A stretch of DNA of 47,839 nucleotides, from contig JAJDAG010000082.1 of NCBI GenBank assembly GCA_029262005.1, forward strand, positions 1 to 47,839. Direction: 5' to 3'. Numbering within the stretch: position 1 is the stretch's first letter; each line of letters starts with the position of its first letter. The DNA is from Candidatus Zhuqueibacterota bacterium (GTDB lineage Bacteria > Zhuqueibacterota > Zhuqueibacteria > Oceanimicrobiales > Oceanimicrobiaceae). Below, one piece after another: positions 17,191 to 44,156 of this stretch. Under the pieces are notes generated by a model that was given only the letters and a program-made list of their open reading frames with translations, searched no databases and was not told the DNA's origin. Made by a program: the position numbers and the translations under genes.

Positions 17191-17220
17191 TCTTTTCCTC
17201 TCTCTCGTTTTTTTGATCAA

Positions 17221-17273
17221 AAAATAAGCTGTCGCACAACCTTAATTATATTGGTTGTTTGACAGCTTATTTT
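17221..17273 (-). terminator. Strong hairpin terminator of the HAO-family gene
   Basis: Perfect 13-bp arms AAAATAAGCTGTC/GACAGCTTATTTT with an inner CAACC/GGTTG stem, 16 bp past the stop at 17289. On the minus strand it ends in a run of T. Confidence 0.85.
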
Positions 17274-17288
17274 ACAGTTAATTCTGCT

Positions 17289-20385: not shown

Positions 20386-20394
20386 AAGCTTGGT

Positions 20395-21666: not shown

Positions 21667-21743
21667 GTTACCCCTCTAAATAGTGTTCACTCCCATTGCC
21701 TGCCTGAACAGAGATTCCAAGTCTGTAATTCTGAAAAAACCGT

Positions 21744-23252
21744 TTACTGCAATTGTGAAGTTCCATCGTGACATTCGCTGCAGGCCGACTCTTTCCAGGC
21801 TTCGTCGATGTCAACGGGATGTTTGAATTCGAGGCCACCGGGTGCAATCATTTCCCCTTGTTCACCATTGCCTTGAGAAAGAATGATGTGGCACGTACTG
21901 CAATCATTAGAAATCGTTTCGCCATCCTCAGTTATAAATGCGCCGTTGTGGCAGCGATAACATCCCGGGCTGGTGAAATGGCCGATGTTATCTGGGTAAA
22001 CATCCCAGCGTACCTTCATCTTGGGGAAAAAATTCTGGCTGTAGATTTTCTGAACACCCGCAATCAGACTGTCAATATCTGTTTTTCTTTCTGCAATAAC
22101 GTCCGGGTATTCCTCTTCGTAAGCGCTCCGAATCGTGCCGGCAATCGCTGTCAGTGCGGAGTCCTTGGTTGTAAATTCGCCAATCAAAGCCTCAATGCCA
22201 ATTCGCTTGGCACTGGGTAAGGATTTGTCAATCCACCCAGCCGTTAATGCACGATTCATCGCCTTGCTAGGCGTTTGGTAAATATGAGTAGGCCGGTTAT
22301 GGCAGTCGATGCAATCCATTCTGCGTTTGGCATATTTGCCCATATCTTCCGGCTCAATGGGATTCTCTTCATTAATATATTCACGGACTTTGCCTTCATG
22401 ATCTTTGATGCGGACCCAGCCAATTTCCTGCCTGCGTTCATCAGTGGCAATATAGTCTATTTCATTGGCAATATTCATGTGCCAGTGAATTCCCTCGGCA
22501 ATCCCAATATTCTTGCTACCTCCTCCGGTCTTGATTAGAAGACGGATCGGCCAGTGACTGTTCTCTTCATCTACCATATAGTGGTCATAGATTTTTTCGA
22601 GAGAACCGTGAAATTTGTCCGGCCAATGGCACTGTTCGCATGTTTCACGGGCCGGTCGTAAATTTTCAATAGGGGTAGGTATTGGCCGTGGGAACAGGTC
22701 AAAACTGGCGGCATAAACCTGGTATGCACCTGAGAGTTTAGACCTCACATACCAATCCGCCCCATGCCCGACATGGCACTCGGCACAGGTCACGCGCGCA
22801 TGCGGAGAATGTTGGTAAGCCACAAATTCCGGCTCCATCACAGTGTGACAAACCTGGCCACAAAAAGTGACTGATTCGGTAAATTCATAAGCTTTGTAAC
22901 TGCCAATAGCCGTGGCAAGCAAAAAAACTATCGTCACGGAAGAAAAAACCATGGTAGCACGCCGGTGCGAAGCTTTGCCAAGATCGACATAAAAAGATCT
23001 CGGTTGTATCTCCCCAAGGTCCGACGCCCAACGTCGTCGTTCCAGAATCATACCAATTGGAATCAAAACCAGCCCAAGTACAAGCATGGCCGGCAGGATA
23101 ATAAATGCAATAATGCCGGTATAAGGTGCCGGGTCTCCCATTATTACGTCAAAAATTACAATTGCCAGAATGACCACAAAATTAACAATCGCGGCAACAG
23201 CCCCAAACATGCTTATTGGGTTATAAACAGAACTTGGTAGTTTTTTAAGCAC
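21744..23252 (-). CDS. NapC/NirT-type inner-membrane heptahaem cytochrome c (quinol dehydrogenase)
   Basis: A 502-residue membrane cytochrome likely to pass electrons from the quinol pool to periplasmic carriers. Three membrane helices (about 17-37, 46-70, 100-118) precede a periplasmic part. The first haem site is the unusual CGQVCH (131-136) followed by TVMEP, matching the NapC/NrfH-type first haem with a nearby Met. CAECH, CEQCH, CIDCH, CYRCH, CSTCH and CSECH follow, seven in all. NapC itself has one helix and four haems, so this is an extended version. The start is a GTG at 23252 with GGAGG five bases upstream. It is third in a five-gene operon. Confidence 0.86.
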   Translation of the reverse strand: MLKKLPSSVYNPISMFGAVAAIVNFVVILAIVIFDVIMGDPAPYTGIIAFIILPAMLVLGLVLIPIGMILERRRWASDLGEIQPRSFYVDLGKASHRRATMVFSSVTIVFLLATAIGSYKAYEFTESVTFCGQVCHTVMEPEFVAYQHSPHARVTCAECHVGHGADWYVRSKLSGAYQVYAASFDLFPRPIPTPIENLRPARETCEQCHWPDKFHGSLEKIYDHYMVDEENSHWPIRLLIKTGGGSKNIGIAEGIHWHMNIANEIDYIATDERRQEIGWVRIKDHEGKVREYINEENPIEPEDMGKYAKRRMDCIDCHNRPTHIYQTPSKAMNRALTAGWIDKSLPSAKRIGIEALIGEFTTKDSALTAIAGTIRSAYEEEYPDVIAERKTDIDSLIAGVQKIYSQNFFPKMKVRWDVYPDNIGHFTSPGCYRCHNGAFITEDGETISNDCSTCHIILSQGNGEQGEMIAPGGLEFKHPVDIDEAWKESACSECHDGTSQLQ

Positions 23253-23279
23253 TCGTTCCTCCGATATGCGTGCGGAAAA

Positions 23280-24995
23280 TCAATTTTCAGTCGCGGCAGT
23301 CACAGTTGTATTTTTTCGATGCCGCGCGTAAAGCAATGACAATCCAAGCAAAACAGATCCCACTGCCAGAAACAATATGATACGCAAACCTGCGTTTAAT
23401 TGAGCCATATCAATTAGAAAAACCCGAAAAAGTACCGCCAGTATGGTACCGAAAGCCATCCACCGATACTTCACTTTCTTGAGTAGCAAACTCATCCCGA
23501 AAAAGAACAGCGTTGCCACGAGCCACAAAAGACTGACATAAGGCGCCGGCACCGCGTGAGAACAGCCGTACAGAATAATGACAAAAGCTGAAGCAAGATA
23601 CGCACTGCGAATTTTCTCTGTTCTAAGTTCCAGGCGCTGCTGCTGCCAATTCAGTAATCTGGCGCTGATTAGCGCGACTATCGCATAACTTAAATTTACA
23701 AAATTATTCGATTCAAAAAACTGCAAATAGGCCAGAAAAATACCAAGATAAATAAAGCTGTTTACAACAACAAGTAGCCTGGACCTGAACCAAACTGCGT
23801 TTGAAACAACCAGCAAACTTTGCCAGCCCAACCAAATAAAATACTCCGGCGCATCAAACTGCAAAAAGATGGCCACACTCAAGCCGAAATAACCAAAGCA
23901 AGCATTTATTGAGGACGCGTATTTACTTTGATTTCTGCCCCAATTCAACATGGAAAAAACGAGAAGAAATCCTGCAAGCACGACATAAACAATAGCCAGA
24001 TGTGGCTTATGGAACATGAAACCTGCAAGTGACGCCAGCACGGACATACCTGTCGCATTTACGAAAGTCAGGGACAGTTCAAACATCTCCGATCGGTTGT
24101 TTTCCTTTGCAAACAGCGTTGGAAGCGCGAACAAAGCTCCGTAAACAAACAGGTAAATCAAACTATTTTGATGCTCTGACGCTATCTGCAACGGTCTGCC
24201 AAGCAGTGGATTGTTGAGCATCCAAAGCAGGTGAGTTACATAAACCAGAATCATGCAAACAATAAACGATTTCTGCCAGGAAAATCTGAACAATGCAAAG
24301 GCGCCGGCTGCCGCAGTCAACACCAGCATGAGCTGACAATAGTGGCTGGACTCGCTGATCAAGCCGGTCGCGCAACACAAAAAAAATGTCAATCCGGTGA
24401 GCAGCTCGCTCCCACGTTTTAACGACAACAGGTAAAACGCCACCAACAAACCGGTGAGTGCAATCAGTGCAATCGTTTGGTTGGTCAAAACCGGCGTGCT
24501 GTTCAAAAAATGCAAGCGAAGTGTGACAAAATAACAAAGAACAAGACCACCGCCAAACAATAGCCTCGACAGGTGCTGTAACGTTACACGCCAAATTCTT
24601 GATAACGCGAAAACACCCGCCACCAACAAATAGGCGACCAAAGTCGTCACAGCAGGCGGAACGGAAGCAAATGGGTAGCTGACGAGGAATGCGACCCCCA
24701 AAAGCAGAACGAGCGTCCCGACCCGTGCCAGCCAGAATTCGCCGATTTTAGACTCCAAAGAGGCTGCTGCGCCGGTCGAGGGCGTTTCAGCTAAAGTGTC
24801 GGAGATGCGGTTGGGTTCGCTAACAGTCCGGACGGACTCCCGCATCGATATGTCGAGGTGATTTTCGAGAAACAAAACCCGCTTCTCCAGCATCTCGATT
24901 TTGCGCTGAAGTGTATTCGGCTCGGGTTGTTGACTTTTAATTGATTCGTCCATTGCACCAGAAATAGAATCTATGACTTCGGTGGTCACAGGCAT
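23280..24995 (-). CDS. DUF2339-like polytopic membrane protein
   Basis: A 571-residue integral membrane protein. Residues 1-85 are soluble and include a short predicted coiled coil (LQRKIEMLEKRVLFLENHL); the rest is about 14-16 hydrophobic helices. The junction LESKIGEFWLARVGTLVLLLGVAF matches the start of DUF2339 family proteins (pattern W-L-x-R-[IV]-G-x-L-x-L-L-L-G-V-A-F), whose function is unknown. It lies 42 bp after the seven-haem lipoprotein and 27 bp before the NapC-type gene, so it is inside the conduit operon. It has no haem motif. A role in assembly of the conduit is possible but not shown by sequence. No clear Shine-Dalgarno was seen. Confidence 0.75.
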   Translation of the reverse strand: MPVTTEVIDSISGAMDESIKSQQPEPNTLQRKIEMLEKRVLFLENHLDISMRESVRTVSEPNRISDTLAETPSTGAAASLESKIGEFWLARVGTLVLLLGVAFLVSYPFASVPPAVTTLVAYLLVAGVFALSRIWRVTLQHLSRLLFGGGLVLCYFVTLRLHFLNSTPVLTNQTIALIALTGLLVAFYLLSLKRGSELLTGLTFFLCCATGLISESSHYCQLMLVLTAAAGAFALFRFSWQKSFIVCMILVYVTHLLWMLNNPLLGRPLQIASEHQNSLIYLFVYGALFALPTLFAKENNRSEMFELSLTFVNATGMSVLASLAGFMFHKPHLAIVYVVLAGFLLVFSMLNWGRNQSKYASSINACFGYFGLSVAIFLQFDAPEYFIWLGWQSLLVVSNAVWFRSRLLVVVNSFIYLGIFLAYLQFFESNNFVNLSYAIVALISARLLNWQQQRLELRTEKIRSAYLASAFVIILYGCSHAVPAPYVSLLWLVATLFFFGMSLLLKKVKYRWMAFGTILAVLFRVFLIDMAQLNAGLRIILFLAVGSVLLGLSLLYARHRKNTTVTAATEN

Positions 24996-25037
24996 TGCGA
25001 CAACCGTTTTCCCGCTTGATACAAAGAAAATTACAAA

Positions 25038-25907
25038 TTAAAACATCGGGGATTCCTGACCGAAAACATTGATGTTGCCATTAACATGCTTCGATTTGTC
25101 AATAATGACCCCGGCAGCATCGATAACCGAGCCATGACAATTGGCGCATTGATTGAGTTCGGCAGCAGCATGCCCGACCGGGGGCAAATTATGGCAACTA
25201 CCGCAAACTACAGTCGATGGTTCAGTCCAGATCGGTGTTGCATTATTGCCCCTGATTTCATCCTCGGTATAAATGAAGCTTCTGCTGGACTGATCCTTCG
25301 CTAAGCTCCAATTTCCATGACAATATGAATTGGAACAAGAGACTGAGCCTTCATCCCAAACCGGATTCGCAGCATCGGTCAGTGCAAGTTCGCTGAATGT
25401 GACTTCAGCCGGTAAGTCAGAATCGGCATGACCGGCGCTGGAAAAGCTGGTTGGAACCACGTGACAACTTGAACACGCGTTGCCATCAGTGAAAGTAGCG
25501 CCGCTCAGATGGGTTGTGTGTGCTCCCACGCCCTGAATGTTGACAGCCGTGTTTCCGTCCAGATCGCGCGGAGGTGCCCCGGTTAAATTATCACCGCCAC
25601 CGTGACAGACAATACAGTCTTCAGGCGTAGTTGCATGGCAAGTTAAACAAGATGTGCCTGAAGCGCCGCCATCATATTGTTCACCATGGCAGGCTTGACA
25701 CTGCGCAAGATTCCATTGTGTATTCCTGATGAACTTGCCATGAAAATCCTGCGAAGTTTTTGTGAGCCAGCCGGTAGCGTGAAATGACTTTGATACAATA
25801 GGAATGTCGTCGTGCAGGTCGCTGCATGCGTGAAACATCCAACCAGTCAACACACAACAGCAAAGGAAAAAACAAGTTTTCAAAGTACCTTCTTTGTGAA
25901 TCCTCAT
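25038..25907 (-). CDS. Heptahaem cytochrome c lipoprotein (CxxxxCH/CxxCH type)
   Basis: A 289-residue probable outer-membrane cytochrome. From the ATG at 25907 (GGAG four bases upstream) the N-terminus MRIHKEGTLKTCFFLCCCVLTGW ends in a lipobox-like FHAC, placing the lipidated Cys at residue 28. A longer frame to 25976 would bury the signal. Haem sites are CQACH, CLTCH, CIVCH, CSSCH, CSNSYCH (CX4CH), CGSCH and CANCH. The mixture of CxxxxCH and CxxCH with CHNLPPVGHA is the pattern of the Geobacter-type CxxxxCH/CxxCH family, often found at the cell surface. It is the first gene of the five-gene conduit operon. Orientation of the lipoprotein (outside or periplasmic) cannot be read from sequence. 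Confidence 0.8.
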   Translation of the reverse strand: MRIHKEGTLKTCFFLCCCVLTGWMFHACSDLHDDIPIVSKSFHATGWLTKTSQDFHGKFIRNTQWNLAQCQACHGEQYDGGASGTSCLTCHATTPEDCIVCHGGGDNLTGAPPRDLDGNTAVNIQGVGAHTTHLSGATFTDGNACSSCHVVPTSFSSAGHADSDLPAEVTFSELALTDAANPVWDEGSVSCSNSYCHGNWSLAKDQSSRSFIYTEDEIRGNNATPIWTEPSTVVCGSCHNLPPVGHAAAELNQCANCHGSVIDAAGVIIDKSKHVNGNINVFGQESPMF

Positions 25908-26038
25908 GTGCTCCAAGTCTCTTTGAGTTTCTGTTGTGCGAGCAAGGCGTTTTACCAAAAACGACCCCATACCCACTTTAATCTGTTAGAGTGTCACAGC
26001 CAAACATGGTAAGGCAATTGTGTAACATTCATTCCTGC

Positions 26039-27462: not shown

Positions 27463-27505
27463 AAAGACAGCAGGTTAGCGAGTTGACTGCCGACCTGCTG
27501 TCTTT
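27463..27505 (-). terminator. Hairpin terminator of the first T9SS cytochrome gene
   Basis: Perfect 13-bp arms AAAGACAGCAGGT/ACCTGCTGTCTTT with a 17-nt loop, 36 bp past the stop. On the minus strand TTTTCATTTT follows. Confidence 0.85.
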
Positions 27506-27541: not shown

Positions 27542-30500
27542 TTATTTGATGAGGATCAGTTTTTTGGTTGCCGCAAAGCCATTCACTTCCAGACGGTAAA
27601 AATACAGGCCACTGGCCAGGTTGGAGCCGTTAAAGATTATTCTTTGGCTCCCTGCTGGCATGACCTTGTCCAGTATGGTTGCGACTTCCTTACCAATAAC
27701 ATTGTACACCTTCAAAACTACCTGCCCTTGTTTAGCGACATTAAATTCGATATTTGTGCTCGGATTGAAGGGGTTCGGATAGTTCTGAGACAATGAGTAC
27801 TCCTCGGGAATGGTAACCAGATCGCGGCTGTCTACACCAGTAATCGAAGGGATACTCAAAGTATTGAGTACATTTCCTGAAGTCCAGTGCGAACTGCCAC
27901 CACCATTATCTATCAGAGCCACACCAAATTTGAATGTACCGACGGTAAACTGAGCATCATCGTCGTTGCCGGTATTCAAAGCACGCTTGATTTCCGTGTA
28001 CCAGACACCATCCTTCCAGATAGCTGCCTGCGTTACGTCAGCACGGCTATCCAGTGGAACTCTCAAAATGCGTTCCGGTACGACTGCACTGAAACCGGCA
28101 TAGACCGCCCAGGCGTTCGTCAAATCACCGGCAGCCATCGTTGCCACTTCCAGTGCTTCACCGTTGTCAATTTCCGCCTGACGCAGAATCATGGCGTCAA
28201 TGTAATCAGCGGGATTGGTTTCGATGTATTTGGGTGCATTTTTGTCAGCATTACGGTTATGCGAGTAAGTGCTGCCACCGGCGTCGCCATGACGACCGCC
28301 ATCACCGCTATCCGTAAAGTCACCAACATATTTATCATCGACGTACCCAACAAGTGAGACTTCACCGGCTGTAACTTCATGCGAAGCAGGATCAATAGTA
28401 AGAACTCCAGCCTGATTGGCGCTTACTGTTCCAAGGGAACGCGCTGCTTTCATGTGCCACATATCTGCCTTCTGACCCGTTGGCAAGTAAGCATCATCGG
28501 CATTGGTGGTATGGTCATTACCGGCATTTGTGTTAGCAATATCCGTGTGGCATTTGTTCATGCAACCTCTGGCATCCCAGTCTTCTTCCGGAATGCTGAT
28601 ATTCCACAACATGCCCAGGCGGTCTTCATTTTGTCCCGAACTTTTCGCCCAGGCAGAGCCATCAAAGCTCCAGGAGCCACCACGGGTCATACTGAGGGTC
28701 GCGTCATCCCATTTGGCGAGAAAATAAATATCCGTCAGCGTTACGGCAGCTTTCATAGAGACCATTCTGCCATTGGCCAGCGGAATATCTTTAGTCCAGT
28801 CAATACCGGCCCAATCGGTGGTGTCACCATCCATTGTGAAAGCAGAGGTCACTTCGGGCGCTTCAACTGTCTTGCCCTCGCCGCCCAATTGCCTGAACCA
28901 CTGGTTGTCATACCAGTAAAGTAACTCTTCCGCCAGATCAACATCTGTCTGCTCAGACCAGTCAGTTAAATTATCAGAAGCAACATCAACACCAAAGTTA
29001 GGCATAGATTCCTTGATGTGACAGCTTACCGCACAAGCATTAGGCATTGCCATGTCCAACGTCTTTTTGGGGGAAAGAGCTTCAAAAGTATGGGCATGAA
29101 TATCATAAGCAACTGCAGATTTGATGATCTTTGGATTATGACATTTGGAACAACGACTGGCACCTGTGCCTGTTGGATCGTACTTATGGTTTGTATGTTT
29201 ACTTACAACCGCTGCAATAGCATCAACATTAGTCGTATAGTCTGCTACCCATTCAATTGGAATATCCGTAAAATCTCCATGCGTAGCATGACAGGCTAAA
29301 CAGAGGGTGTTGTTATCATTCTCAGTAGCAATCGTAATCTCTGCGCCAGTCGAATCTTCGCTCACCCTCGCGGTTCTCATATGATGTTTCTCTGAGTTGT
29401 GAACATCGTGACAATCATAACATGTAACGTCACGCCAAGGCATCAAAAGGTCACCTTTGCCACTTACATTAAAATCAAAAAATTGTTGATGGTGCTTTTT
29501 GGATGAACCGTCCGGCCAGTCACCACCCCCATCTGAGTAAAGGCTAGCCACCAAATCCCCGAGTGACCAGGAGGTAAAATTGTCATCGTCGTAAGGAAAG
29601 CTGAAAGTATTATTAGGCAAGCTTTTACCACGAGAGTGGCACATGCCGCACATGTTGGCAGCTTCTAGCGTGGTCATGTCGGTAGCAGGGTTGATGATCT
29701 TTGTTTTGTCTGTGGTCATGGCGTGTTCGCTACCCGGTCCGTGACATGTTTCACAGCCGTTATTAAGTTGCTCTTTGACACCATCACCATCTAAATCAAA
29801 AATGTTATTGTTGGTATAACTGGTGATAGTCGTTGGGTCAATTGCACCACCACTCATTGTCCACTCACCGTTTGCATCTTTTGGGTTTATCACCATTCCG
29901 GTTGTGTGACAGCCCGAACAGCCTTTGGTGAAGCTTCTGCTGTTTGTGGCAATGTCAGATAAAGCGGAAGCCGACGTAAATACAGGAACGTTGCTCGGCG
30001 TGCCGTTATCATGTACCCAGTAGTCGTCCGGGTGATACAGAACATACTCATGCGTTTTTTCATTATATTGAATTGGAGAAATATACATGTCAGCGGATTC
30101 TGCGCCAGTTGAATCAGGAATCCGCATCGCGTAACGTTGTTTGTACAGACCACTACCACCATAGGTCAAGTAAACGCGAGAAGTCACTTCACCGATTGTA
30201 ATGGTATAACCATCGTTCGCACTGTAAGCCAGAATGGGTGCATTTGGCTTAAACGGATCAAAAGCACTGCTGATGTCATTAAAGTTCAAGCCATCGTGAA
30301 AATCGTCGACACCGTTTGAATCGTAATCGTTAACGACTCCAAAAAGATCTTGCATTGTTTTTGAATCGTCCGTTACATCAGAGTACCCGTTGGCGTGCAT
30401 GGACGTCCGCCACCCGGTCATATCACCCAGACTTGGGTTACTGTGGCACTGCAAACATTTTTCCGGGCCAACATAAGTGCTTTGGGCAGAAAGGCCCGGC

Positions 30501-30562
30501 ACCATCATGAACATGCTGAATAGTATCAGCCCGGTCAGTAATGTGTAGCATTTTTGTAACAT
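27542..30562 (-). CDS. T9SS-exported nonahaem cytochrome c with ethylbenzene-dehydrogenase-like domain
   Basis: A 1006-residue secreted cytochrome. The start at 30562 is set by AAGGAGG six bases upstream and a signal peptide ending in GLSAQS. Seven CxxCH sites (CLQCH, CSGCH, CETCH with GPGSEH, CGMCH, CYDCH, CLACH, CSKCH) lie in the first half, then CAVSCH and CMNKCH, both CX3CH. Around residues 560-850 is a segment beginning FTMDGDTTDWAGIDW that resembles the haem-binding EB_dh domain, with CMNKCH inside it. The C-terminus is a NYPNPFNPSTNIEF sorting domain, so the protein is probably released or surface-bound through type IX secretion. It follows an intact receiver gene by 37 bp. Partial similarity to the cytochrome at 31608 indicates duplication. 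Confidence 0.86.
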   Translation of the reverse strand: MLQKCYTLLTGLILFSMFMMVPGLSAQSTYVGPEKCLQCHSNPSLGDMTGWRTSMHANGYSDVTDDSKTMQDLFGVVNDYDSNGVDDFHDGLNFNDISSAFDPFKPNAPILAYSANDGYTITIGEVTSRVYLTYGGSGLYKQRYAMRIPDSTGAESADMYISPIQYNEKTHEYVLYHPDDYWVHDNGTPSNVPVFTSASALSDIATNSRSFTKGCSGCHTTGMVINPKDANGEWTMSGGAIDPTTITSYTNNNIFDLDGDGVKEQLNNGCETCHGPGSEHAMTTDKTKIINPATDMTTLEAANMCGMCHSRGKSLPNNTFSFPYDDDNFTSWSLGDLVASLYSDGGGDWPDGSSKKHHQQFFDFNVSGKGDLLMPWRDVTCYDCHDVHNSEKHHMRTARVSEDSTGAEITIATENDNNTLCLACHATHGDFTDIPIEWVADYTTNVDAIAAVVSKHTNHKYDPTGTGASRCSKCHNPKIIKSAVAYDIHAHTFEALSPKKTLDMAMPNACAVSCHIKESMPNFGVDVASDNLTDWSEQTDVDLAEELLYWYDNQWFRQLGGEGKTVEAPEVTSAFTMDGDTTDWAGIDWTKDIPLANGRMVSMKAAVTLTDIYFLAKWDDATLSMTRGGSWSFDGSAWAKSSGQNEDRLGMLWNISIPEEDWDARGCMNKCHTDIANTNAGNDHTTNADDAYLPTGQKADMWHMKAARSLGTVSANQAGVLTIDPASHEVTAGEVSLVGYVDDKYVGDFTDSGDGGRHGDAGGSTYSHNRNADKNAPKYIETNPADYIDAMILRQAEIDNGEALEVATMAAGDLTNAWAVYAGFSAVVPERILRVPLDSRADVTQAAIWKDGVWYTEIKRALNTGNDDDAQFTVGTFKFGVALIDNGGGSSHWTSGNVLNTLSIPSITGVDSRDLVTIPEEYSLSQNYPNPFNPSTNIEFNVAKQGQVVLKVYNVIGKEVATILDKVMPAGSQRIIFNGSNLASGLYFYRLEVNGFAATKKLILIK

Positions 30563-30599
30563 AAGAAACCTCCTTGAAAGTGAACAGCAAGTAATACAG

Positions 30600-30959
30600 T
30601 TAATTGAGTTTATGAAATAGCACATCGTTTAGTGCCGCGAAATTAAGGGGTTTTACAGCATAATAAACCACACCCTCTTGTAGAAGTTGTCCACCTAGCT
30701 TTTTCGAAGGCTCAGAGGAGAGGACAACAACTGAAATTTTTGGCCGAATTCGCCGTAAGATTTTTACTGTTTTTAATCCGATATCGTTTAAGACCTCAAA
30801 ATCATAAATAACCACCTGGAAATCTTGCTCTAGAACTTCGAGAAGTAAATCCAACTCATCATTGACAATCGCCGGTGTGATGCCTGTTTCGCTCATTTGC
30901 TCCAAAATCTGCTCGCAGCAAATGTCGTCACGACAGGATAATAAAATATTTCCTTCCAC
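30600..30959 (-). CDS. Stand-alone receiver-domain protein (copy A)
   Basis: A 119-residue protein with the fold signature of a CheY-like receiver and no output domain. Acidic residues are Asp11/Asp12, the likely phosphorylation site is Asp53 in VVIYDFEV, the switch position is Ser81/Ser82, and Lys103 lies in AVKPL. The first strand NILLSC is unusual because the acidic pair comes two residues later than in CheY. The start is GTG at 30959 (GGAG nine bases upstream); an in-frame TAG lies 17 codons further upstream. It is 37 bp ahead of the T9SS nonahaem cytochrome and presumably cotranscribed. Copy B at 34523 is frameshifted. No histidine kinase is in the window. Confidence 0.8.
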   Translation of the reverse strand: MEGNILLSCRDDICCEQILEQMSETGITPAIVNDELDLLLEVLEQDFQVVIYDFEVLNDIGLKTVKILRRIRPKISVVVLSSEPSKKLGGQLLQEGVVYYAVKPLNFAALNDVLFHKLN

Positions 30960-31350
30960 TCCTTGCTTCTCCGCTGACCTGATGTCATTATTGACTTCGG
31001 TGATCGTCTATTCAATATTCGTACCAAAAAGTCTCAAAAACAACAGTACTAAAGTAGTTGCACTAAGTTTATAATAATTATATACTTAAATTGAGTAGTC
31101 TAAAATGGTACTTTGCAGTTTTACCTAAATGCATCAGCAGGAATGTGATCGACTTGTCGCAGTATTTAAGTCGTATTCAAATATTGACTTGTTTTTTTTA
31201 AACTTAAGTCAATTGAGGCACCAACACCCCAACTGCGACATGCATGCCCCATTTTTCCGGGAATGGATCTATCTTGAGGTCTATCTAGAAAAAAGCTGTC
31301 CGTAAAGAGCAGAAATATTTAAATAATTGTGTTCAAGCGAAATGGGCTGT
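30600..31350 (-). repeat. Segmental duplication, copy A (receiver plus upstream DNA)
   Basis: This segment aligns with 34523-35310 through the receiver gene and about 390 bp of non-coding DNA upstream. Two blocks are nearly unchanged: 31012-31040 (TCAATATTCGTACCAAAAA, one mismatch, TCTCAAAAA) and 31187-31206 (ACTTGTTTTTTTTAAACTTA). The downstream cytochrome genes are also related, so the whole repeat unit is about 3.8 kb in direct tandem orientation. Confidence 0.85.
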
Positions 31351-31607
31351 TTGTCAAAGTCCCGGGAGTTCGTGCAATATGCTAACCTGAATAATTCACA
31401 GCACCCTTGTCATTCTGGAGGAATCTTGTAATTTACAGCAGTTTACCAAGTTAACAAGACTCCCCCTGAGTGACAATCCGGTGCATGACATTTGATTCTT
31501 AAATCGTAAATTTAGGAACTAACCAGGCTAAACAATCTCGCAAAAAAAAACGCGCAGGAAGGATAACCTTCCTGCGCGCCGAAAGATACGGTAAAGGATG
31601 CTGCTTT
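30960..31607. other. 648-bp intergenic region, mostly duplicated DNA
   Basis: The first 390 bp are the duplicated upstream region of receiver copy A. The rest (31351-31550) shows no ORF or RNA gene I can support. The terminator of the second T9SS cytochrome is at 31551-31578. Confidence 0.6.
31551..31578 (-). terminator. Strong rho-independent terminator of the second T9SS cytochrome gene
   Basis: A perfect 12-bp GC-rich stem CGCGCAGGAAGG/CCTTCCTGCGCG with an ATAA loop (TTAT on the minus strand). On the minus strand nine T residues follow. It lies 29 bp past the stop. Confidence 0.93.
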
Positions 31608-34328
31608 TTATTTCATCACGATCATTTTTCGTACAGCAGCAAAACCATTTATCTGTAGTCTGTAGAAATAGATTCCAGAGGTTAGTTCGCTTGCACTAAG
31701 CGTGATCTGGTGGAATCCCGCTTCTAACCGTCCATCCATTACTTCCATTGCAACTTCGCCCAAAGCGTTGTACACGGTCAAAGTCACATGACCGGGTTGC
31801 TTCAAACCAAACTGTATGTTGGTCGTTGGATTAAACGGGTTTGGATAATTTTGTGCCAGCGAGTACGCTTCAGGAATAACACCCGGGAAGTTACCTTCGA
31901 CGGAAGTCACCATCAGGCTGAACTCACTAGAGAAGGCGCTTTCATTGCCGGAGAAATCATGTGCAGACAGGCGATAGTAGTATTTCGTTCCGATAGCCAC
32001 GCCTGCATCAACATAAGATGCATCTGTGATTTTGGCTATTGGTTCGGTGCCAGTGGGATCGAAACCAACCGTTGTACTGCGGTAGAGGGTAAAGTAGTTA
32101 AAGTCGCTATCAACCGAGTCATCCCAGGTCAGATCGATTCCAGCCGTGGTTTCCTGTCCAGCCAGGTTGGTGGGAGCCATGGGCATCAGATTGTCAATCG
32201 AGTAGCCGCTCAGCGGTAAAGTCACAGCATAAATAGCAGTGACATTGGTGTGACCGGAAACTTTGAATGTTGACAATTTCAGCCCGGCAGCGGTTGAATC
32301 AAATAATGTAGGCACAATTGCGCTATATTCCGCCATTGCAGATGCAGGTACAGAACCAGCAAAATCCCATAAATCGCCTTCAAGATCAAGGCGGCTGCCG
32401 GTCTCCAGTTTTGCAATGTCCTCAGAATTTACGTTCAGTGTGTTCAGCGTGCCTTTTCTACTGGCAGCACCACCTTCAACCTTGCGCCACACCGCATAGT
32501 TGCGAACAGGATTGTTGCTTATACCGTCGCCGCCGAAACGAGTCCAGGTAACACGAACTTGTTTACCCTGGTCGTTTGGAACATCCATAACTGATGTAAC
32601 ATCGCCTTCGGCCAATACACCGTAAGTTAAGGCTGCTTCCGACAATTTCATTAAACCCATGGCAAAACGGAAGTTATGCGCACCGTGGGAACCATCATCA
32701 TGTATGTAATGATAGTTGAATAATGCATTCAATTGAATGCGTGAGTAATTACCATCAGGATCATCCTGAACATCCGGGTCGCCGAGTGGAGGCAGCAAGA
32801 GTGCAACTTTTGCAAGCTGACCATCCAATTCATCCTGATAGCCCTCAATGGTGCCGTCGCCATCGTAATCTTCTGTTACAACGATATCGTTGTACTCTTC
32901 AAGCTCGCCATGACAGCGAACACAAGCAGCAACGTTTTCAATAACAACGCTGTCAACTACTGTGTTCATTGCCCAGGTATGATCGCCAATTAGATCACGT
33001 CCGGGTTCGCCGGCAGCCGGTGTGGCAAACATATGACAATCTACACAGGCATTTTCCAAGGCATCTTTGTGAGTAGAATTGGGTACTATCATGCCCCAGG
33101 TAATTACATTGGCGCCAAACAGCATATCAGCCTGGTTGCTGTGATGCGGACCAAAGTGCCTGTGCGGATCCTGGGCATAAGTGATCGCTTCACGACGTCC
33201 GATATGGCAGTTCATACAAAGTTTGCCTTTGCCGCCTTTAGTGATTACACTTCCGTCGCCCAGAGTCACATTGTCCTGATCGCGGATCTGATGTTCACCA
33301 TTTTCGCCTGAGTGTGGATCGTGGCAGACGGCGCAGCTAATATTCTGATTACCAGTCTTTTTATCCAGATCGCTGGCAGGATCAATTTTTGCGATAAACC
33401 CCCAGCCGCTGTGACAAGGTGCACACGATGAACTCGTGCCACGAGCGAAAGAGGTGCCGATAGCATGACCGGAACTCTTCCACATTGTGTTTCTGCGATG
33501 GTAATGACCATCTTCATGACATCTGCCGCACGTACCAGCTTCAAGTGAAATATCAATCTTAGTTTTGTCGGCTAAGTGCAAACTACCGGGACCGTGGCAA
33601 TTTTCACATTGGATATTTGACTTTGTTGCAAGCGGTGCAAAATTAGTTGTAATGTCAGCCCAGTTTCCGACAAAAAGTGAATCCGGGAAGGTCCAGCCCA
33701 AATCAGCCTGAACGTCATCAAAACCACCGTTAACTGCTGTTGTATCCCAGCCAACAGTATGACAATCTATACAACTTTCATTATAGTGCGAGCTCTTCAA
33801 ACCATCAATGGCCTCTTCAAACATGGTTGCATGGCCTGTCTCCATCCAGGATGTCGTATTGCTGACATGGCAGAGACCGCATTGACCATCCGGATAACTT
33901 ACGGGAGTAGCCCCACCTACCGTGCCAACGCCTACATACTCTGCAGCCGTTATCACAATACTGGTTGTTGCGTTTCCTGTAGCAGTGGCTATCTCTAATT
34001 GAATGGTGTAAAGCCCAACACTGTCAGGACGAAAAGTTGTTCGGGCTTTGTCCGTACTGTCGAGCACAACCGTCGAACCTGTAGGTTGGCTGGTAATTGA
34101 CCAGGTGTAAGCTGTAACCTCTTCGTCACCCGATCCCATTAAATAAACAAGTTCCCCATTTCCTACAACCTTCAGTCCGGTTGAAGGCGGCGTGGTTCTG
34201 CCGGCAACTTCCAGCTCCCAGGGGCTCCAATGTTCCACATCAATGGTTGCTGCTGGTTGTGCGAGGACAAAAGACGTCATCCACAGGACCAGGCAGCTGC
34301 TGGCGAAAAGTAGCTTTGAAAGTTTCAT
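31608..34328 (-). CDS. T9SS-exported nonahaem cytochrome c with FN3-like domain
   Basis: A 906-residue secreted cytochrome. The start at 34328 has GGAGG six bases upstream and a signal peptide ending in FVLAQP. Residues about 30-130 form a PKD/Ig-like domain. Nine CxxCH sites follow: CGLCH, CIDCH, CENCH (GPGSLH), CGRCH, CAPCH, CAVCH, CMNCH, CVDCH and CVRCH. A fibronectin-III-like segment (DLTWDDSVDSDFNYFTLYRS) precedes the C-terminal sorting domain with NYPNPFNPTTNIQF. The first half resembles the cytochrome at 27542, especially the CxxCHGPGSxH and following CGxCH region, but the EB_dh-like part is absent. It is probably surface exposed and could be a terminal or intercellular electron carrier. 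The receiver gene before it is broken. Confidence 0.87.
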   Translation of the reverse strand: MKLSKLLFASSCLVLWMTSFVLAQPAATIDVEHWSPWELEVAGRTTPPSTGLKVVGNGELVYLMGSGDEEVTAYTWSITSQPTGSTVVLDSTDKARTTFRPDSVGLYTIQLEIATATGNATTSIVITAAEYVGVGTVGGATPVSYPDGQCGLCHVSNTTSWMETGHATMFEEAIDGLKSSHYNESCIDCHTVGWDTTAVNGGFDDVQADLGWTFPDSLFVGNWADITTNFAPLATKSNIQCENCHGPGSLHLADKTKIDISLEAGTCGRCHEDGHYHRRNTMWKSSGHAIGTSFARGTSSSCAPCHSGWGFIAKIDPASDLDKKTGNQNISCAVCHDPHSGENGEHQIRDQDNVTLGDGSVITKGGKGKLCMNCHIGRREAITYAQDPHRHFGPHHSNQADMLFGANVITWGMIVPNSTHKDALENACVDCHMFATPAAGEPGRDLIGDHTWAMNTVVDSVVIENVAACVRCHGELEEYNDIVVTEDYDGDGTIEGYQDELDGQLAKVALLLPPLGDPDVQDDPDGNYSRIQLNALFNYHYIHDDGSHGAHNFRFAMGLMKLSEAALTYGVLAEGDVTSVMDVPNDQGKQVRVTWTRFGGDGISNNPVRNYAVWRKVEGGAASRKGTLNTLNVNSEDIAKLETGSRLDLEGDLWDFAGSVPASAMAEYSAIVPTLFDSTAAGLKLSTFKVSGHTNVTAIYAVTLPLSGYSIDNLMPMAPTNLAGQETTAGIDLTWDDSVDSDFNYFTLYRSTTVGFDPTGTEPIAKITDASYVDAGVAIGTKYYYRLSAHDFSGNESAFSSEFSLMVTSVEGNFPGVIPEAYSLAQNYPNPFNPTTNIQFGLKQPGHVTLTVYNALGEVAMEVMDGRLEAGFHQITLSASELTSGIYFYRLQINGFAAVRKMIVMK

Positions 34329-34522
34329 AAAAAACCTCCACATTGATTAAAAAGGTATTAGAAATGGCAGACCAAACAATTTGTTCAGCCACCTTTAAGA
34401 CTTATTTTGTTGAACAATTTGTCTTGAATGACTCTAATTCCACCCTGAGCACAGATGCCCTAAACCCAAAAAAATGCAGACAACGCTTAGTCGTAATATG
34501 ATATAAATAACGCATGGGGTCC

Positions 34523-34905
34523 CTAAATATATGGTTTGGTTGATTGCTTTCTTAAAACGTTCTGAACAACCTCCAATATTGCCTCAGGATTGATAGGTTT
34601 GACAGCATAATATGTCACACCCTCTTGTAGCAGTTGTCCACCCAGTTTCCTTGAGGGATCCGAAGACAACACAACAACTGAAGTTTTTGGCCGGATTCGT
34701 CGCAAAATTTTTACTGTTTTTGAACCGACATCATTTAAATCTCAAGATCATAAATAACAACCTGAAAATCTTGCTGCAGAACTTCAAGCAGTAAATCCAT
34801 CTCATTATTGACAATAGTAGGTGTAATGCCTGCTTCGCTCAATTGAACGAAAAGCTGACTGCGGTAAATGTCGTCACGGCAAGATAATAAGATTTTGCCT
34901 TTCAC
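34523..34905 (-). pseudogene. Frameshifted receiver-domain gene (copy B)
   Basis: A paralog of the receiver at 30600. From the GTG at 34905 it reads VKGKILLSCRDD to VVIYDLEI and stops at TAA. The rest of the domain, including IRPKTSVVVLSSDPSRKL and YYAVKPINPEA, continues in another frame from about 34737. Comparison with copy A shows one base missing near 34739. The phospho-acceptor Asp is before the break, and the switch Ser and Lys are after it. Both halves have kept receiver-like sequence, so the lesion is recent, a sequencing error, or a functional frameshift. It lies upstream of the second T9SS cytochrome, with a gap of about 195 bp that includes a 10-bp direct repeat AACAATTTGT (34375 and 34413). 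Confidence 0.75.
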
Positions 34906-35310
34906 CTCTTGCTTCTCCGCTGACCTGAGGTCACTTTTGACACCAACAGGCTTACACTCAATATTCGTACCAAAAACTCTCAAAAAACCACAACACTTCT
35001 GTAATGCCCTAAGCTTCAAACAATTAAATACTTAAACTAAATAATCCCAAAATGGTAATCTGCAGTTACACGCAAATACAGCAGCAGGAGTGTGATCGAC
35101 TGATCTCACTACCGGATTCGTACCAGCATAGTCACTTGTTTTTTTTAAACTTAGACGAATAGAGACTCCGACACCCCAATTGTGTCATGCATGTCCCGAT
35201 TTATCCAGGAATTGGCCTTTCCTGTAGCAAAAAAAGCTGTCTGAAAAAGAACAGCAGCCTCACCAATAGTTGTTTTCAAGCAAAATGGGTTGCTTGGCCA
35301 GGTAAGCACA
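34523..35310 (-). repeat. Segmental duplication, copy B (receiver plus upstream DNA)
   Basis: The partner of 30600-31350. The conserved blocks are at 34958-34986 and 35134-35153. Shorter shared words include GTGATCGACT, CATGCATG and AAAAAGCTGTC. Similarity fades after about 35310. Confidence 0.85.
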
Positions 35311-35423: not shown

Positions 35424-36827
35424 TTAAGGCTGCACTTTCATGCCATGCGCATCAATTTTGTAGCGTTTAATAAGCCTGTGAAAGGTTCGACGATCGATAC
35501 CACTGTGAGCAGCAGCCTTTGAAATATTCCCGTTATGCTGTACTAAAATTTTGGTAATGTATTCTTTCTCAAAATTGGCCACAAGCCCTTCTTTGGCTTC
35601 TTTAAACGGTTGGCCGATTTCCACAGAAAGCGCATTGTTTTGAGTGCAGGTAAGTGCTTCAGGCAAGTCATCTGGTTGAATCCACTCACCTGTTGTCAGG
35701 GTCACCGCACGCTCGATAACGTTTTCCAGTTCCCGAACATTGCCTGGCCAGTGATATTTTTCGAGGCAAGCAAGACCTTCTTCGGAAACACCCTTTAAGT
35801 TCTTTGGGGTTAATTTCGAGTATTTTGCAATAAAATGTTCACATAAAAAAGGGATATCGATAATGCGCTGACGCAACGGTGGTAAAGCAATGGTGATGAC
35901 ATTGAGTCTATAATATAAGTCCTGCCTAAGACTACCGCTTTCTGTGGCAGACTCAAGGCTCTGGTTAGAGGCTGAAATGATTCGCACGTCCAGATCGATT
36001 AGCTCGGTTCCACCGACCCTGCGAATATTTCTCTCTTGCAGCATCCTTAATAATTTGACCTGTAATGGTAACCTCAACTCACAAATTTCATCTAAAAAGA
36101 AAGTACCGCCATCGGCAAATTCAAGCAACCCGGGTTTTCGACGATGGGCACCAGTAAACGCACCCTTCTCATAACCAAACAACTCACTCTCAAACAGATG
36201 TTCCGGGAAGGCCCCACAATTGACCGGCACGAACGGTTTGGACTTGCGCAGACTATTGGCGTGAACGCTCCGTGCAACCAGCTCCTTACCAGTGCCACTT
36301 TCACCGATTATTGTGACATTGGTATCTGATTGGGCAACGCGGGATATCATTTTGAAAACTTGCTGCATAGCAAGACTGGTACCGATTAGATTATCGAAAC
36401 CGTTTTTTTCGATCAACTGCTCCCCAAGCTCACGGTTTTCTTTCAATAAGTCCCGATGTCGAAGCGACTTTTCCACAACAACCCGCAATCGGGCAGCCTT
36501 GAATGGCTTTTCGATAAAATCAAAAGCGCCTTGCCGCATGGCTTCTACTGCGGTCTCAACGTTGCCGTAGGCACTAAAAATAACAAACGGCGTTTCAGGT
36601 GAAACATCTCGTGCTGCCCTGAGAAGGTCGAGTCCATCTTTTTTGGGCATGGACAGATCACTGATTATCAAGTCATACTCACCTGTACTGATTTCTGCTT
36701 CTGCCCGCACACTGTCATTTATTGTCACAACATCAATGTGCCCGTTATTACGCAATAGCTTGGCGCAACTCTCCAGAATTGCTTTGTCGTCATCAACGAT
36801 CAGAATCTTTGTTTTCAACACGCTCAT
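35424..36827 (-). CDS. Sigma54-dependent NtrC-family response regulator
   Basis: A 467-residue transcription activator. The N-terminal receiver has the acidic triplet in ILIVDDD and phospho-acceptor Asp57 in IISDLSMP. The AAA+ domain has Walker A GESGTGKE, the sigma54-contacting loop GAFTGA, and a Walker B-like FFLDEI. The C-terminal Fis-type helix-turn-helix reads NISKAAAHSGIDRRTFHRLIKRY. The start is set at the ATG at 36827, six bases after AAGAG; another ATG lies two codons earlier. It sits directly upstream of the tandem receiver/cytochrome units, so these are the natural candidates for control, but no convincing shared sigma54 promoter was found. No cognate kinase is in the window. Confidence 0.95.
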   Translation of the reverse strand: MSVLKTKILIVDDDKAILESCAKLLRNNGHIDVVTINDSVRAEAEISTGEYDLIISDLSMPKKDGLDLLRAARDVSPETPFVIFSAYGNVETAVEAMRQGAFDFIEKPFKAARLRVVVEKSLRHRDLLKENRELGEQLIEKNGFDNLIGTSLAMQQVFKMISRVAQSDTNVTIIGESGTGKELVARSVHANSLRKSKPFVPVNCGAFPEHLFESELFGYEKGAFTGAHRRKPGLLEFADGGTFFLDEICELRLPLQVKLLRMLQERNIRRVGGTELIDLDVRIISASNQSLESATESGSLRQDLYYRLNVITIALPPLRQRIIDIPFLCEHFIAKYSKLTPKNLKGVSEEGLACLEKYHWPGNVRELENVIERAVTLTTGEWIQPDDLPEALTCTQNNALSVEIGQPFKEAKEGLVANFEKEYITKILVQHNGNISKAAAHSGIDRRTFHRLIKRYKIDAHGMKVQP

Positions 36828-36833
36828 TGTCAT

Positions 36834-37236: not shown

Positions 37237-39159
37237 CTACTCTTTTTTTTTCTGATGTTGTGCCGTTGCTTCCAGAAATTCAGCCGCCAAAGTCAAAAAA
37301 TCACGCTCGGTAACAATGCCCACCAGTTGCTCTTCATAAACGATCGGCAGACAGGAGGCGCCTTCAGAGCGCATAAGCTCAATGGCATTTTGCGTTGGTG
37401 TGGAGGGCTGAACCGTTGGCATGTCCGTTTGCATGATGGTACTGACCGGAGTCAAGGAATGGTCAAGGTTCAATTTGCCCTCACGTATCAAGTTTACCAG
37501 GGAACGATAATTGACCATGCCCACAAGTCGGTTATTATTGTCCTCAACCGGTATGTGGCGAATATGGCGCCAATGCATTACATTCAGGACAAGATCGATT
37601 GAGTCCTCCGGATTAACCGTAAACAAATCCGTGGTCATAATTTGTTCGATCTTGACAAAATGCTTGCTTGGGTCTGCCTTCCCGGCCAATTTCCACTTGT
37701 GAACCGGCTTCCCACCCTTTTCTCTATCTGATGCTGCCTGCGCAATTGAAAGCAGGCATTTGTCCAGGCTTTCAGTGCGCTTTAATTCAGAAAAAGAACT
37801 GAGCATCCACTGTGCCCCGGTGCGGCCGCTACTTACCCGTTCTTCAATGATGTCAAGGTAGCGAGTGATGTCCGCTGAATCCAAACCAGCCGCCTGCAAC
37901 CCTTCTCTGGACATTGGCAACAATTGCTTCAAAATAAGGTCCTGGGCCGGAATTGTCTCGTGATTTGGCCAGACAAATTGCGCCTTCAACCCGCCTCGAG
38001 CTGCAGCATAGAAGTTCGCCTTCACATCATCAAAGTCAAGTTCCCTCGTGATGTCAGGATAAGCTTTTGTCATGCCTTTGATAAGCCCTAACCAAAAAGC
38101 CGCATTAGCCACTTCATCAATAATCGTTGGGCCGGAAGGGAACAGTCGATTTTCAATTCTCAGGTGAGGCTTGCCATTTGTTATTCCATAGCACGGGCGT
38201 GTCCATCGATAAATCGTGCCGTTGTGAAGTTGCAATGCTTTTAACCCGGGCGCCTTACCATCTGCAACCATTTGCAACGCATCTTCCTCATACACTTCAT
38301 GCGCAAACAAAACTCTGAAGCGGGCAATATCTTCCTGAAATATTTCCAGAATGGATTCTTTCACCCAGCAGTTGCCAAAAGTAACTCTGGCAGGGTTGTG
38401 ACGAATATGGCGCGGGGAGCTACGCGTATCCGTTGACTGCTGAAATACCGCAATTCGTGTTTCATTCCAGAGCCGTTTGCCAAACAAAAGGGGTGAATTG
38501 ACCGCAGCGGCCAACACCGGGCCGGCAACTGCCTGGGCAATGTTGTAGTACCTGGCAAAATTTTCAGCGCTGACCTGGAAATGAACCTGGAAACTAGTGT
38601 TGCACGCCTCAAGCATCACAGAGTCATGTTTGAGATAAAGCTCATCAATGCCGCGGAGAAAAATGCTGTACTTGTTTCCCCGCAAGCGATTCATTGCTTC
38701 ATTCAGCGCATGATACCGCGGCTTTGGTGTCATATTTTCCAGGCCTAAATCTTGTTTCCGCAATGTTGGCAAAATCCCTGAAAGGAAAATATCTGCGCCA
38801 TGTTTCCGGGCAACATTGCGCACCTTTTTAATATGTTTGTGCAGTTGTGTCTCCAGCACCTGAAGGCAATTGTCTGCGAACATGAGTGGAGCAAGATTAA
38901 ACTCTATATTAAATCGACCCAGCTCAGTAGTAAAATTTGGGTCTTTCAGATCTTCCAGAATGGGCATGCATTTCGGGCAAGGCCGGTAATCTGAATTGAT
39001 CAGAACAAGCTCTTGCTCAGCGCCCATTCGACTCACGCCGGACTCAATCATGCCGGTTTCCAGCATACATTCCAATGCCTTTACATCATTCAACAAGCAC
39101 CTCTCAAAAACGCGAATTTGTTCTGAGTCGGATGTGCTCTTAACTTTCTGCTCTCCCAT
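37237..39159 (-). CDS. Glutamate-cysteine-ligase-like (GCS2) protein fused to a CBS pair
   Basis: A 640-residue cytoplasmic protein. Residues about 30-420 resemble the GCS2 carboxylate-amine ligase family: MGAEQELVLI near residue 45, LGRFNIEFNLAP, ACNTSFQVHFQVS and a central RIENRLFPSGPT motif. The C-terminal part (about 510-630) has two CBS domains (IMTTDLFTVNPEDS...HIRHIPVED and IMQTDMPTVQPSTP...SCLPIVYE), which usually bind adenine nucleotides and regulate activity. The family makes gamma-glutamyl bonds, but whether cysteine is the substrate cannot be told. It lies 95 bp after the TPR lipoprotein gene. GAGGA lies just before the ATG. A thiol-related role would fit the neighbouring sulfur operon, but that is inference. 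Confidence 0.82.
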   Translation of the reverse strand: MGEQKVKSTSDSEQIRVFERCLLNDVKALECMLETGMIESGVSRMGAEQELVLINSDYRPCPKCMPILEDLKDPNFTTELGRFNIEFNLAPLMFADNCLQVLETQLHKHIKKVRNVARKHGADIFLSGILPTLRKQDLGLENMTPKPRYHALNEAMNRLRGNKYSIFLRGIDELYLKHDSVMLEACNTSFQVHFQVSAENFARYYNIAQAVAGPVLAAAVNSPLLFGKRLWNETRIAVFQQSTDTRSSPRHIRHNPARVTFGNCWVKESILEIFQEDIARFRVLFAHEVYEEDALQMVADGKAPGLKALQLHNGTIYRWTRPCYGITNGKPHLRIENRLFPSGPTIIDEVANAAFWLGLIKGMTKAYPDITRELDFDDVKANFYAAARGGLKAQFVWPNHETIPAQDLILKQLLPMSREGLQAAGLDSADITRYLDIIEERVSSGRTGAQWMLSSFSELKRTESLDKCLLSIAQAASDREKGGKPVHKWKLAGKADPSKHFVKIEQIMTTDLFTVNPEDSIDLVLNVMHWRHIRHIPVEDNNNRLVGMVNYRSLVNLIREGKLNLDHSLTPVSTIMQTDMPTVQPSTPTQNAIELMRSEGASCLPIVYEEQLVGIVTERDFLTLAAEFLEATAQHQKKKE

Positions 39160-40536: not shown

Positions 40537-41166
40537 TTAGCAACCCTCCTCAGCACTTTTTTTCTTCTTAAATTTGATTTTGGGCTTGGGTTTGACTGGC
40601 GATTTTTCTCCTGACTGATTTATACCAAGACCCTCTTTAAAGTAACCCGAAGCGGCTTTGCGAAATTGATATTGGAGGATTTCGGAGTCTGCCACCAGAT
40701 CGCCTGGCGCTTCGGGATTGAGGATTGCCTTGGCCCAGTAGTTTAGCCCACCCATCAGCACGTAACTATCAACCCCTTTCTGTTTTAGAAGAATCCAGGC
40801 CTGAGCCGCATCTGTACTGGCATTTGAGTATAAAATAGTTGTTAAGTCATGCGGCAGTTGCTCCAGAGATTCCTCGTCAAACAATTTGGCCAAAGGAATA
40901 TTGCTGGCGCCGGGAATATGGTATTCGTGAAACTGTACGGACGAACGGAGATCAATAATGTTCAAGTCTGCTTTCTTGTCAATAATCCAGGCAGATAGCT
41001 CCTCTGCAGTTGCGTAGAGACTGCGGCTGGTAATGGCTGCGGCCAACTCTTTTGTCGACAAGATTTCACTTTTTCGTAAACCGGCAGGAGAAATGGCCAG
41101 CAAACCACCCAGTAACAATAAAATAGCAACCGCAAATTTGCGGTCAAAAAGCGCTTTCCAATTCAT
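40537..41166 (-). CDS. Membrane-anchored rhodanese-like protein without catalytic Cys
   Basis: A 209-residue protein with an N-terminal membrane helix (11-27) and one rhodanese-like domain (about 50-150), seen in IIDLRSSVQFHEYHIPGASNIP and YVLMGGLNYW. Where rhodaneses have the active-site Cys loop (C-x-x-G-x-R), this one reads SNASTDAAQ (114-122), with no Cys. The C-terminus is a Lys-rich tail (KPKPKIKFKKKKS) ending EEGC, so its only Cys is the last residue, 209. It is the last gene after the two YeeE/YedE genes (151 bp), in a sulfur context. A sulfur-carrier role using the terminal Cys is possible. AAGGAA lies eight bases before the ATG. Confidence 0.83.
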   Translation of the reverse strand: MNWKALFDRKFAVAILLLLGGLLAISPAGLRKSEILSTKELAAAITSRSLYATAEELSAWIIDKKADLNIIDLRSSVQFHEYHIPGASNIPLAKLFDEESLEQLPHDLTTILYSNASTDAAQAWILLKQKGVDSYVLMGGLNYWAKAILNPEAPGDLVADSEILQYQFRKAASGYFKEGLGINQSGEKSPVKPKPKIKFKKKKSAEEGC

Positions 41167-41317
41167 ATTATAGTTTCCTTATTTGAAAAAATGACTTCTT
41201 AAACCACGGGTCAAGCATGATTTATTGTAACTATTCGCCTCCTGGCTCTTAATTTTTGAGAATTTAAGCTGCAAGTTTTGTTTTGCTTAACATATTTTGT
41301 TGACGTGTTTCCAGTGA

Positions 41318-41980
41318 TTAAGCCTGAACCGTCTTAAATGTCCTGGTTGCATCAGGCTCGCGTGTAGTCTCGTTTTCAGGCACTGCCTCTTGCTCTTTTT
41401 CAGCATACTTTTTCTCAATGATTTCAGCCCCCCAAAACATGCCGAGTGCCATCAGAATAACAAGAAAAGCGACCGTGCCGGGACTGAAACCAAGCCACTG
41501 CATCAGGGTGGCATCGCCAATAAAACCACTGGTGGAAAAATCCTGAAAAAGTGGAAAAAGCTCGCCAAAAACAAGCATGCCAAACAGGGCGCCAAAAATA
41601 TATACAAACCCATCTATTTTGCCAATGGCGCTGGCAACCAGGGAAGTGCCCGGACAGTAGCCACCAATGACAAAACCAATACCCATTACGACACCGCCGG
41701 CAACTTGCGGAGCCAGGTAGGTGGGATTCAAATAGATAAGAGAAATATCTAAAATGTCCGTCAAATTCAAATAAAGAATGCCAACCATGGCCGTGACGAT
41801 GGCTGTAAACATCACCTTAAGGACCGTCATGTCCCTGAAATAGAATTGCATGGCGAGCTTGCGTGAACTGCTGAAGCCTGCCCGCTCAAGGGTAAACCCA
41901 AAGAGAATGCCAAGTACAAATGCAACCACCAGACTTACTTCAGCACCAAAAAGACCATATTTATATAAAGGTGCAAACAT
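41318..41980 (-). CDS. YeeE/YedE family sulfur transporter, half 1
   Basis: A 220-residue membrane protein with about five to six helices. The family's Cys-containing motif is seen as GGYCPGTSLVASAIGKIDG (about residues 104-122). YeeE/YedE (TsuA-like) proteins import thiosulfate or other sulfur species through a line of Cys residues. Here the usual fused transporter is split in two adjacent genes, this one starting 17 bp after the other half. AAAGGAG lies seven bases before the ATG. Its neighbours (rhodanese, Psr-like reductase) support sulfur as substrate. Confidence 0.85.
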   Translation of the reverse strand: MFAPLYKYGLFGAEVSLVVAFVLGILFGFTLERAGFSSSRKLAMQFYFRDMTVLKVMFTAIVTAMVGILYLNLTDILDISLIYLNPTYLAPQVAGGVVMGIGFVIGGYCPGTSLVASAIGKIDGFVYIFGALFGMLVFGELFPLFQDFSTSGFIGDATLMQWLGFSPGTVAFLVILMALGMFWGAEIIEKKYAEKEQEAVPENETTREPDATRTFKTVQA

Positions 41981-41997
41981 GTTTTTTCTCCTTTAAA

Positions 41998-42516: not shown

Positions 42517-42587
42517 TATTCACTCCAATTTTATAGTAAAACAGTTCATGATGGTAAAACCATCTAACGCATTTTATTCTTAAAAAC

Positions 42588-43529: not shown

Positions 43530-43586
43530 CTTCCGCTCCTAAAATTCGATCATGGTTATTCGAGAAATGTCAATTGCCGTCTGTAG

Positions 43587-44123: not shown

Positions 44124-44156
44124 ACTTTATCTCCGTTTCCTTATAAATCTGTTTAA

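Follow-up and report, generated by a model that had tools for sequence, protein, structure and literature searches.

Genes and features of the locus

The window, a stretch of 47,839 nucleotides, covers one contig in full, from a genome of 5.77 Mb. In a scan of named genomes, its nearest relatives were MAGs of candidate division KSB1; the scan was run with the cytochrome gene cyt2, the alignment of the receivers being too variable for that use. The genes considered here are transcribed from the minus strand in the order NtrC-type activator, rec2, cyt2, rec1 and cyt1, followed by more multihaem cytochromes (Table 1). The activator combines a receiver, a sigma-54 AAA+ domain and a Fis helix-turn-helix, and its gene lies directly upstream of the rec2-cyt2 unit. 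The genome holds rpoN and 33 activator domains, one of which adjoins the receiver-cytochrome units; no histidine kinase gene adjoins the activator within the window.

Table 1. Coordinates of the activator, receivers, cytochromes and associated elements in the window.
Feature	Position	Strand	Remarks
NtrC-type response regulator	35424..36833	-	Pfam Sigma54_activat 1e-68, Response_reg 6e-27, HTH_8
Duplicated block, upstream copy	34577..35303	-	Non-coding DNA and most of rec2
Sigma-54 -24/-12 type site TGGTACGAATATTGAG	34957..34972	-	67 nt before rec2 start; score 12.0, shuffle p 0.02
rec2, stand-alone receiver, interrupted	34523..34905	-	Two frames needed; 1-bp deletion near 34740
cyt2, 9-CXXCH cytochrome	31608..34328	-	T9SS type A sorting tail
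Intrinsic terminator after cyt2	31549..31580	-	14-pair stem, run of T
Duplicated block, downstream copy	30630..31360	-	Non-coding DNA and most of rec1
Sigma-54 -24/-12 type site TGGTACGAATATTGAA	31011..31026	-	67 nt before rec1 start; score 13.4, 0/200 shuffles as high
rec1, intact stand-alone receiver	30600..30959	-	Pfam Response_reg 7e-9; predicted receiver fold
cyt1, cytochrome with 7 CXXCH and 2 CX3CH	27542..30562	-	EB_dh domain, T9SS tail
Hairpin and T run after cyt1, probable terminator	27466..27502	-	Read from sequence; loop too long for terminator scan

The rec1 product passes the curated cut-off of Response_reg PF00072 (36.4 bits versus 30.2), and its predicted structure is an alpha/beta receiver fold (pLDDT 88.6) with a TM score of 0.86 to CheY-like structures. 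The GTG start of the receivers is supported by a GGAG located 9 nt upstream in both copies. The preliminary description had listed two stand-alone receiver genes; both were located, but rec2 is frameshifted and only one is intact as assembled. Codon constraint in rec2 is similar on either side of the frameshift (dN/dS 0.28 before and 0.21 after), so the break is either recent or an assembly error. The receivers are under purifying selection, with dN/dS values of 0.23 and 0.11.

In cyt1, the two CX3CH motifs added to its seven CXXCH make nine haems possible, not certain, while the N-terminal region of cyt2 is PKD-like. The T9SS type A sorting domain (TIGR04183) scores 38.6 and 41.4 bits in the two cytochromes, against a cut-off of 23, and the genome carries sprA, the gene of the T9SS translocon. 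With sorting domain and translocon both in place, the two proteins are predicted cargo of the type A pathway.

Promoter-like sites and transcription units

Both receiver genes are preceded by a sigma-54 type site of the form TGGTACG-N4-TTGA, at the same distance from the GTG start and among the best conserved stretches of the duplicated block. The weight matrix was set by us from the published consensus, and its scores are relative only. On this scale, the best score within 140 nt of the receiver was at least 11.5 in 56% of 25 related loci and in 6% of 168 other genes of the same loci (p 3e-7, the loci being related and not independent). Most receivers standing before cytochromes have such a promoter ahead of them; in several members of the family no good site is found close to the start, among them the 18-haem locus of G003 and some exopolysaccharide loci. 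Sigma-70 promoters were no commoner than in shuffled sequences and were rejected as the promoters of these units. A search by eye found no convincing enhancer dyad shared with the related genome OFTM177.

Since a strong terminator follows cyt2, and a hairpin with a run of T follows cyt1, each receiver seems to be transcribed with its cytochrome as a separate unit, rec1-cyt1 being set apart by the terminator after cyt2.

Extent and history of the duplication

The copies at 30630-31360 and 34577-35303 are 75.7% identical over 736 aligned columns (E 3e-150). What was copied is this block of about 730 bp only, comprising regulatory DNA and the receiver gene. A whole-genome search returned no third copy, which rules out a dispersed repeat. 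The conserved upstream DNA gave zero Rfam matches up to E 0.5, and a known structured RNA was rejected as its identity on that basis.

The locus had been described as two head-to-tail units of about 3.8 kb, each a duplicate of the other. The order of upstream DNA, receiver and T9SS-tailed multihaem cytochrome stands, but the cytochromes are not part of the duplication. Profile-profile alignment of the cyt1 and cyt2 families matched only in the 89-residue T9SS tail, to which BLASTP adds a weak match of 164 residues at 29% identity centred on the CXXCH motifs; duplication of the whole unit was therefore rejected. Rather than the diverged duplicates that had been proposed, cyt1 and cyt2 represent two old families with separate sets of orthologues and only the T9SS tail in common, a result close to the one named in the preliminary description as refuting it, namely that the receiver block alone was copied. 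The cyt2 orthologues are 52-73% identical within the family, and lower-identity ones are found in many phyla. The cyt1 orthologues of G003 and G005 are 58-72% identical to cyt1 outside the EB_dh region, which they lack, so this domain was either gained in the present lineage or lost in those two.

The history of the block can be read from OFTM177 (G005), which has the same order of receiver, cyt2, receiver and cyt1, with both receivers intact. There the two blocks share 74.5% identity, whereas the non-coding DNA of the block is 46-52% identical between OFTM177 and this genome, against a shuffled floor of 44-49%. Likewise, the receivers are 84% and 73% identical within the genomes and 37-45% identical between positional counterparts, and trees that force positional pairing of the receivers were rejected. 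Both cytochromes are 72-73% identical between the two genomes. Because dS within the receiver pairs (0.69 and 0.83) is lower than that of the cyt2 orthologues (1.42), the block copies are younger than the split of the genomes. Copies that are more alike within than between genomes, despite a common gene order, are the pattern of concerted evolution. In a third genome, G003, the cyt1 and cyt2 receivers are on separate contigs and are not alike.

These comparisons indicate that the blocks are homogenised or re-duplicated within each genome. The pattern is most simply explained by gene conversion between tandem copies, and independent re-duplication would leave the same pattern. The earlier view that the receiver and upstream DNA had stayed closer than the cytochromes thus holds for the identity of the copies, but not for a cause in slow evolution. 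One could also regard the block as an ordinary recent tandem duplication of promoter and receiver that is already decaying and has no special function, given the frameshift in rec2 and the youth of the copies relative to the split. We consider this very unlikely, in view of the two intact receivers in the same order in OFTM177, the codon constraint in both genomes, the conserved promoter site, and the presence of a receiver in the same place before single cytochromes of other genomes.

An altered phosphorylation pocket

The rec1 pocket retains the phospho-acceptor aspartate (D53), and its acidic pair is replaced by Cys9-Arg10. To place this in its family, 25 KSB1 family receivers were aligned in CheY numbering. 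The phospho-acceptor Asp is present in all 25, and K109 is conserved in 21, the Lys being lost in G010 and G033. The D12 position is acidic in none (it is T, C or S, and once F), the D13 position is acidic in five, and 22 have Asp at position 14; this alignment is least secure in the beta1-alpha1 loop, where a shift of one residue would turn the position-14 Asp into an acidic ligand. Among same-family members linked to cytochromes, the first Mg2+-site acid has become Cys in 8/10. A canonical phosphorylatable receiver combines an acidic pair, the phospho-Asp, a Thr/Ser and a Lys; with its Cys-Arg pair, and with D12 retained nowhere in the family, rec1 falls outside that class. The altered pocket makes ordinary phosphotransfer by this receiver doubtful.

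The same residues bear on a second reading of the locus, in which the module is the same but the receiver serves as a phosphate sink or relay that takes phosphoryl groups from the pathway's kinase or passes them on, as do MrrA and LovR of Caulobacter (PMC5964349). The invariant phospho-Asp and the common Lys would suit such a role, as would four distant cytochrome loci where the receiver in this position has an acidic pair. It nevertheless seems rather unlikely, considering the loss of the first Mg2+-site acid throughout the family, the scarcity of the second, the missing Lys in two genomes, and the lack of an adjoining kinase gene in the window. Spo0F, DivK, MrrA and LovR resemble rec1 as single receiver domains that keep the phospho-Asp and have no output domain, and the predicted fold of rec1 matches the DivK and Spo0F structures; they differ in keeping a working acidic pocket (PMC5964349), whereas the present family has lost triad-1 in all 25 members compared and is linked to sigma-54 operons.

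Aspartate-less receivers (ALRs) such as RitR, HP1043 and FrzS also have an altered acidic triad, a likeness extended here by the frequent occurrence of a basic residue (R or K) at triad-2 (8/25). ALRs have lost the phospho-Asp and mostly keep triad-1, in about 65% (PMC4395418). The present family, with its phospho-Asp invariant and triad-1 always lost, falls outside the ALRs and is their mirror image.

Recurrence in related genomes

The suggestion that a receiver is devoted to these exported cytochromes gained support, and over a wider range than had been proposed, since the arrangement recurs before cyt2 and cyt1 in relatives. In the same family, a receiver lies directly upstream of cyt2 in 5/5 scored genes, the window's own one being the frameshifted copy, and of cyt1 in 3/4. 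Placements in these relatives are before cyt2 in G002, G003, G004 and G005, before cyt1 in G003 and G005, before an 18-haem gene in G003, and before a Rieske/cytochrome b operon in G002. The search for receiver-cytochrome pairs that had been advised thus found them frequent within the family, but across the KSB1 phylum a receiver is directly upstream of only 8/21 scored cyt2 genes and of a minority of cyt1 genes. With 13 of the 21 scored cyt2 genes standing without it, the receiver is dispensable for the cytochrome. Three of the receiver-less cyt2 genes (L162, L163 and L167, in G052, G027 and G045) are themselves preceded, at about 180-205 nt, by strong sigma-54-like sites, so control by sigma-54 may predate the pairing with a receiver.

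Elsewhere in the class, the receiver family precedes cyt1 (G033) and heads FeS/NrfD/cytochrome operons with or without hydrogenase (G010, G034 and G031). It is also found before exopolysaccharide operons (L034, L037 and L201) and, judged from the starts of the proteins, with a sigma-54 type activator on one side and a probable Tad/Flp pilus operon on the other (L199:6965-9003; G038). Two loci of Ignavibacteriae carry a receiver before cyt2, with the same altered pocket in L048 and a canonical one in L054. In four distant loci (G015, G022, G031 and G035), a different receiver that has kept its acidic residues occupies the same position, and a sigma-54-like site lies some 50 nt ahead of it. Position seems to matter more than receiver subtype.

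In most loci with sufficient flanking sequence, an activator AAA+ domain is encoded some 1-2 kb ahead of the receiver, and in one Ignavibacteriae locus, too, a related receiver comes after a sigma-54 activator. Since genomes of 4-7 Mb contain 24-46 sigma-54 activator genes each, an activator this close would be expected by chance in a few per cent of cases. This constant place beside a transcription activator fits regulation better than another reading, that the receiver acts on the product as a localisation or assembly partner of the downstream envelope machinery, in the manner of PorX for the T9SS and of the receiver-like domains of some pilus and gliding proteins. The downstream operons do code mostly for surface or exported machinery, and the structural matches of rec1 include PorX and a pilus-assembly receiver; on the other hand, receiver folds match everything at similar scores in this structure search, and the family also heads NrfD/hydrogenase operons. 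We judge a role of this kind improbable.

A proposed leader receiver in sigma-54 operons

The best explanation of the locus, and in our view a fairly probable one, is a sigma-54 module led by a receiver that exerts operon-specific feedback on the activator. The part that can be read from the DNA, namely the gene order, the promoter-like sites, the family residues, the recurrence and the self-similarity of the tandem block, makes the leader-receiver module itself very likely. Each exported cytochrome would be the second gene of its own sigma-54 unit, the first being the stand-alone receiver, and the adjacent NtrC-type activator would most likely use the duplicated upstream DNA to switch on the two units. 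The receiver would then be produced only while its operon is expressed, and could in turn influence the signalling pathway that turned the operon on. Negative feedback is the likeliest form of this, with the receiver either binding the receiver domain of the activator or vying for the activator's kinase; ordinary phosphotransfer is less probable. This feedback role is tentative, the best of several guesses. Gene conversion or recent re-duplication, by keeping the blocks alike, would hold both cytochromes under one control.

A bolder version may be conceived, in which these proteins form a distinct receiver class that keeps the phospho-Asp, has replaced the first Mg2+-site acid and is the first product of sigma-54 operons; by redox or phosphoryl sensing it would throttle its own activator, and gene conversion would keep tandem copies alike so that the exported cytochromes share one set point. 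We regard this as a long shot.

Familiar NtrC-type control resembles the locus in that an activator with receiver, AAA+ and Fis domains sits beside -24/-12 promoters of the operons that it presumably controls; it differs in that the controlled operon here opens with a gene for a stand-alone receiver whose pocket is altered. We know of no characterised NtrC system with such a leader receiver gene. Among open-licence papers, a literature search found neither such a system nor a description of the arrangement of activator, sigma-54 site and leader receiver. The two cytochromes share type A sorting tails above cut-off, and a genome with sprA, with other multihaem cytochromes exported by the T9SS, and differ from them in belonging to two separate families, one with an added EB_dh domain, each behind a receiver.

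How exported electron-transfer cytochromes are controlled is little known beyond the Geobacter and Shewanella models. If the proposed module is real, the succession of activator, sigma-54 site, leader receiver and operon would provide a genomic marker for regulated surface-electron-transfer or surface-polymer operons in uncultured phyla, and a receiver family with the ALR pocket reversed would help to ask what the phospho-Asp does without the usual Mg2+ ligand. For a regulatory block to evolve in concert ahead of unrelated genes would itself be unusual.

Other features of the window

Upstream of the activator, positions 37237-39159 encode a glutamate-cysteine ligase-like domain fused to two CBS domains. 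Positions 40537-46400 hold a probable thiosulfate/polysulfide respiration operon, with a molybdopterin oxidoreductase (nearest to the thiosulfate reductase PhsA), an Fe4S4 protein, NrfD, two YeeE/YedE-type sulphur transport proteins and a rhodanese. A large electron-transfer cluster at 11944-25976 comprises Rieske, cytochrome b, NapC/NirT-type and several multihaem cytochromes, together with two outer-membrane barrel-like proteins, one of the Alginate_exp family, and could be a trans-envelope conduit. Lastly, a 34-bp near-perfect inverted repeat at 5344-5377, between converging ribonucleotide reductase and FG-GAP/VWA genes, is probably a two-way terminator.
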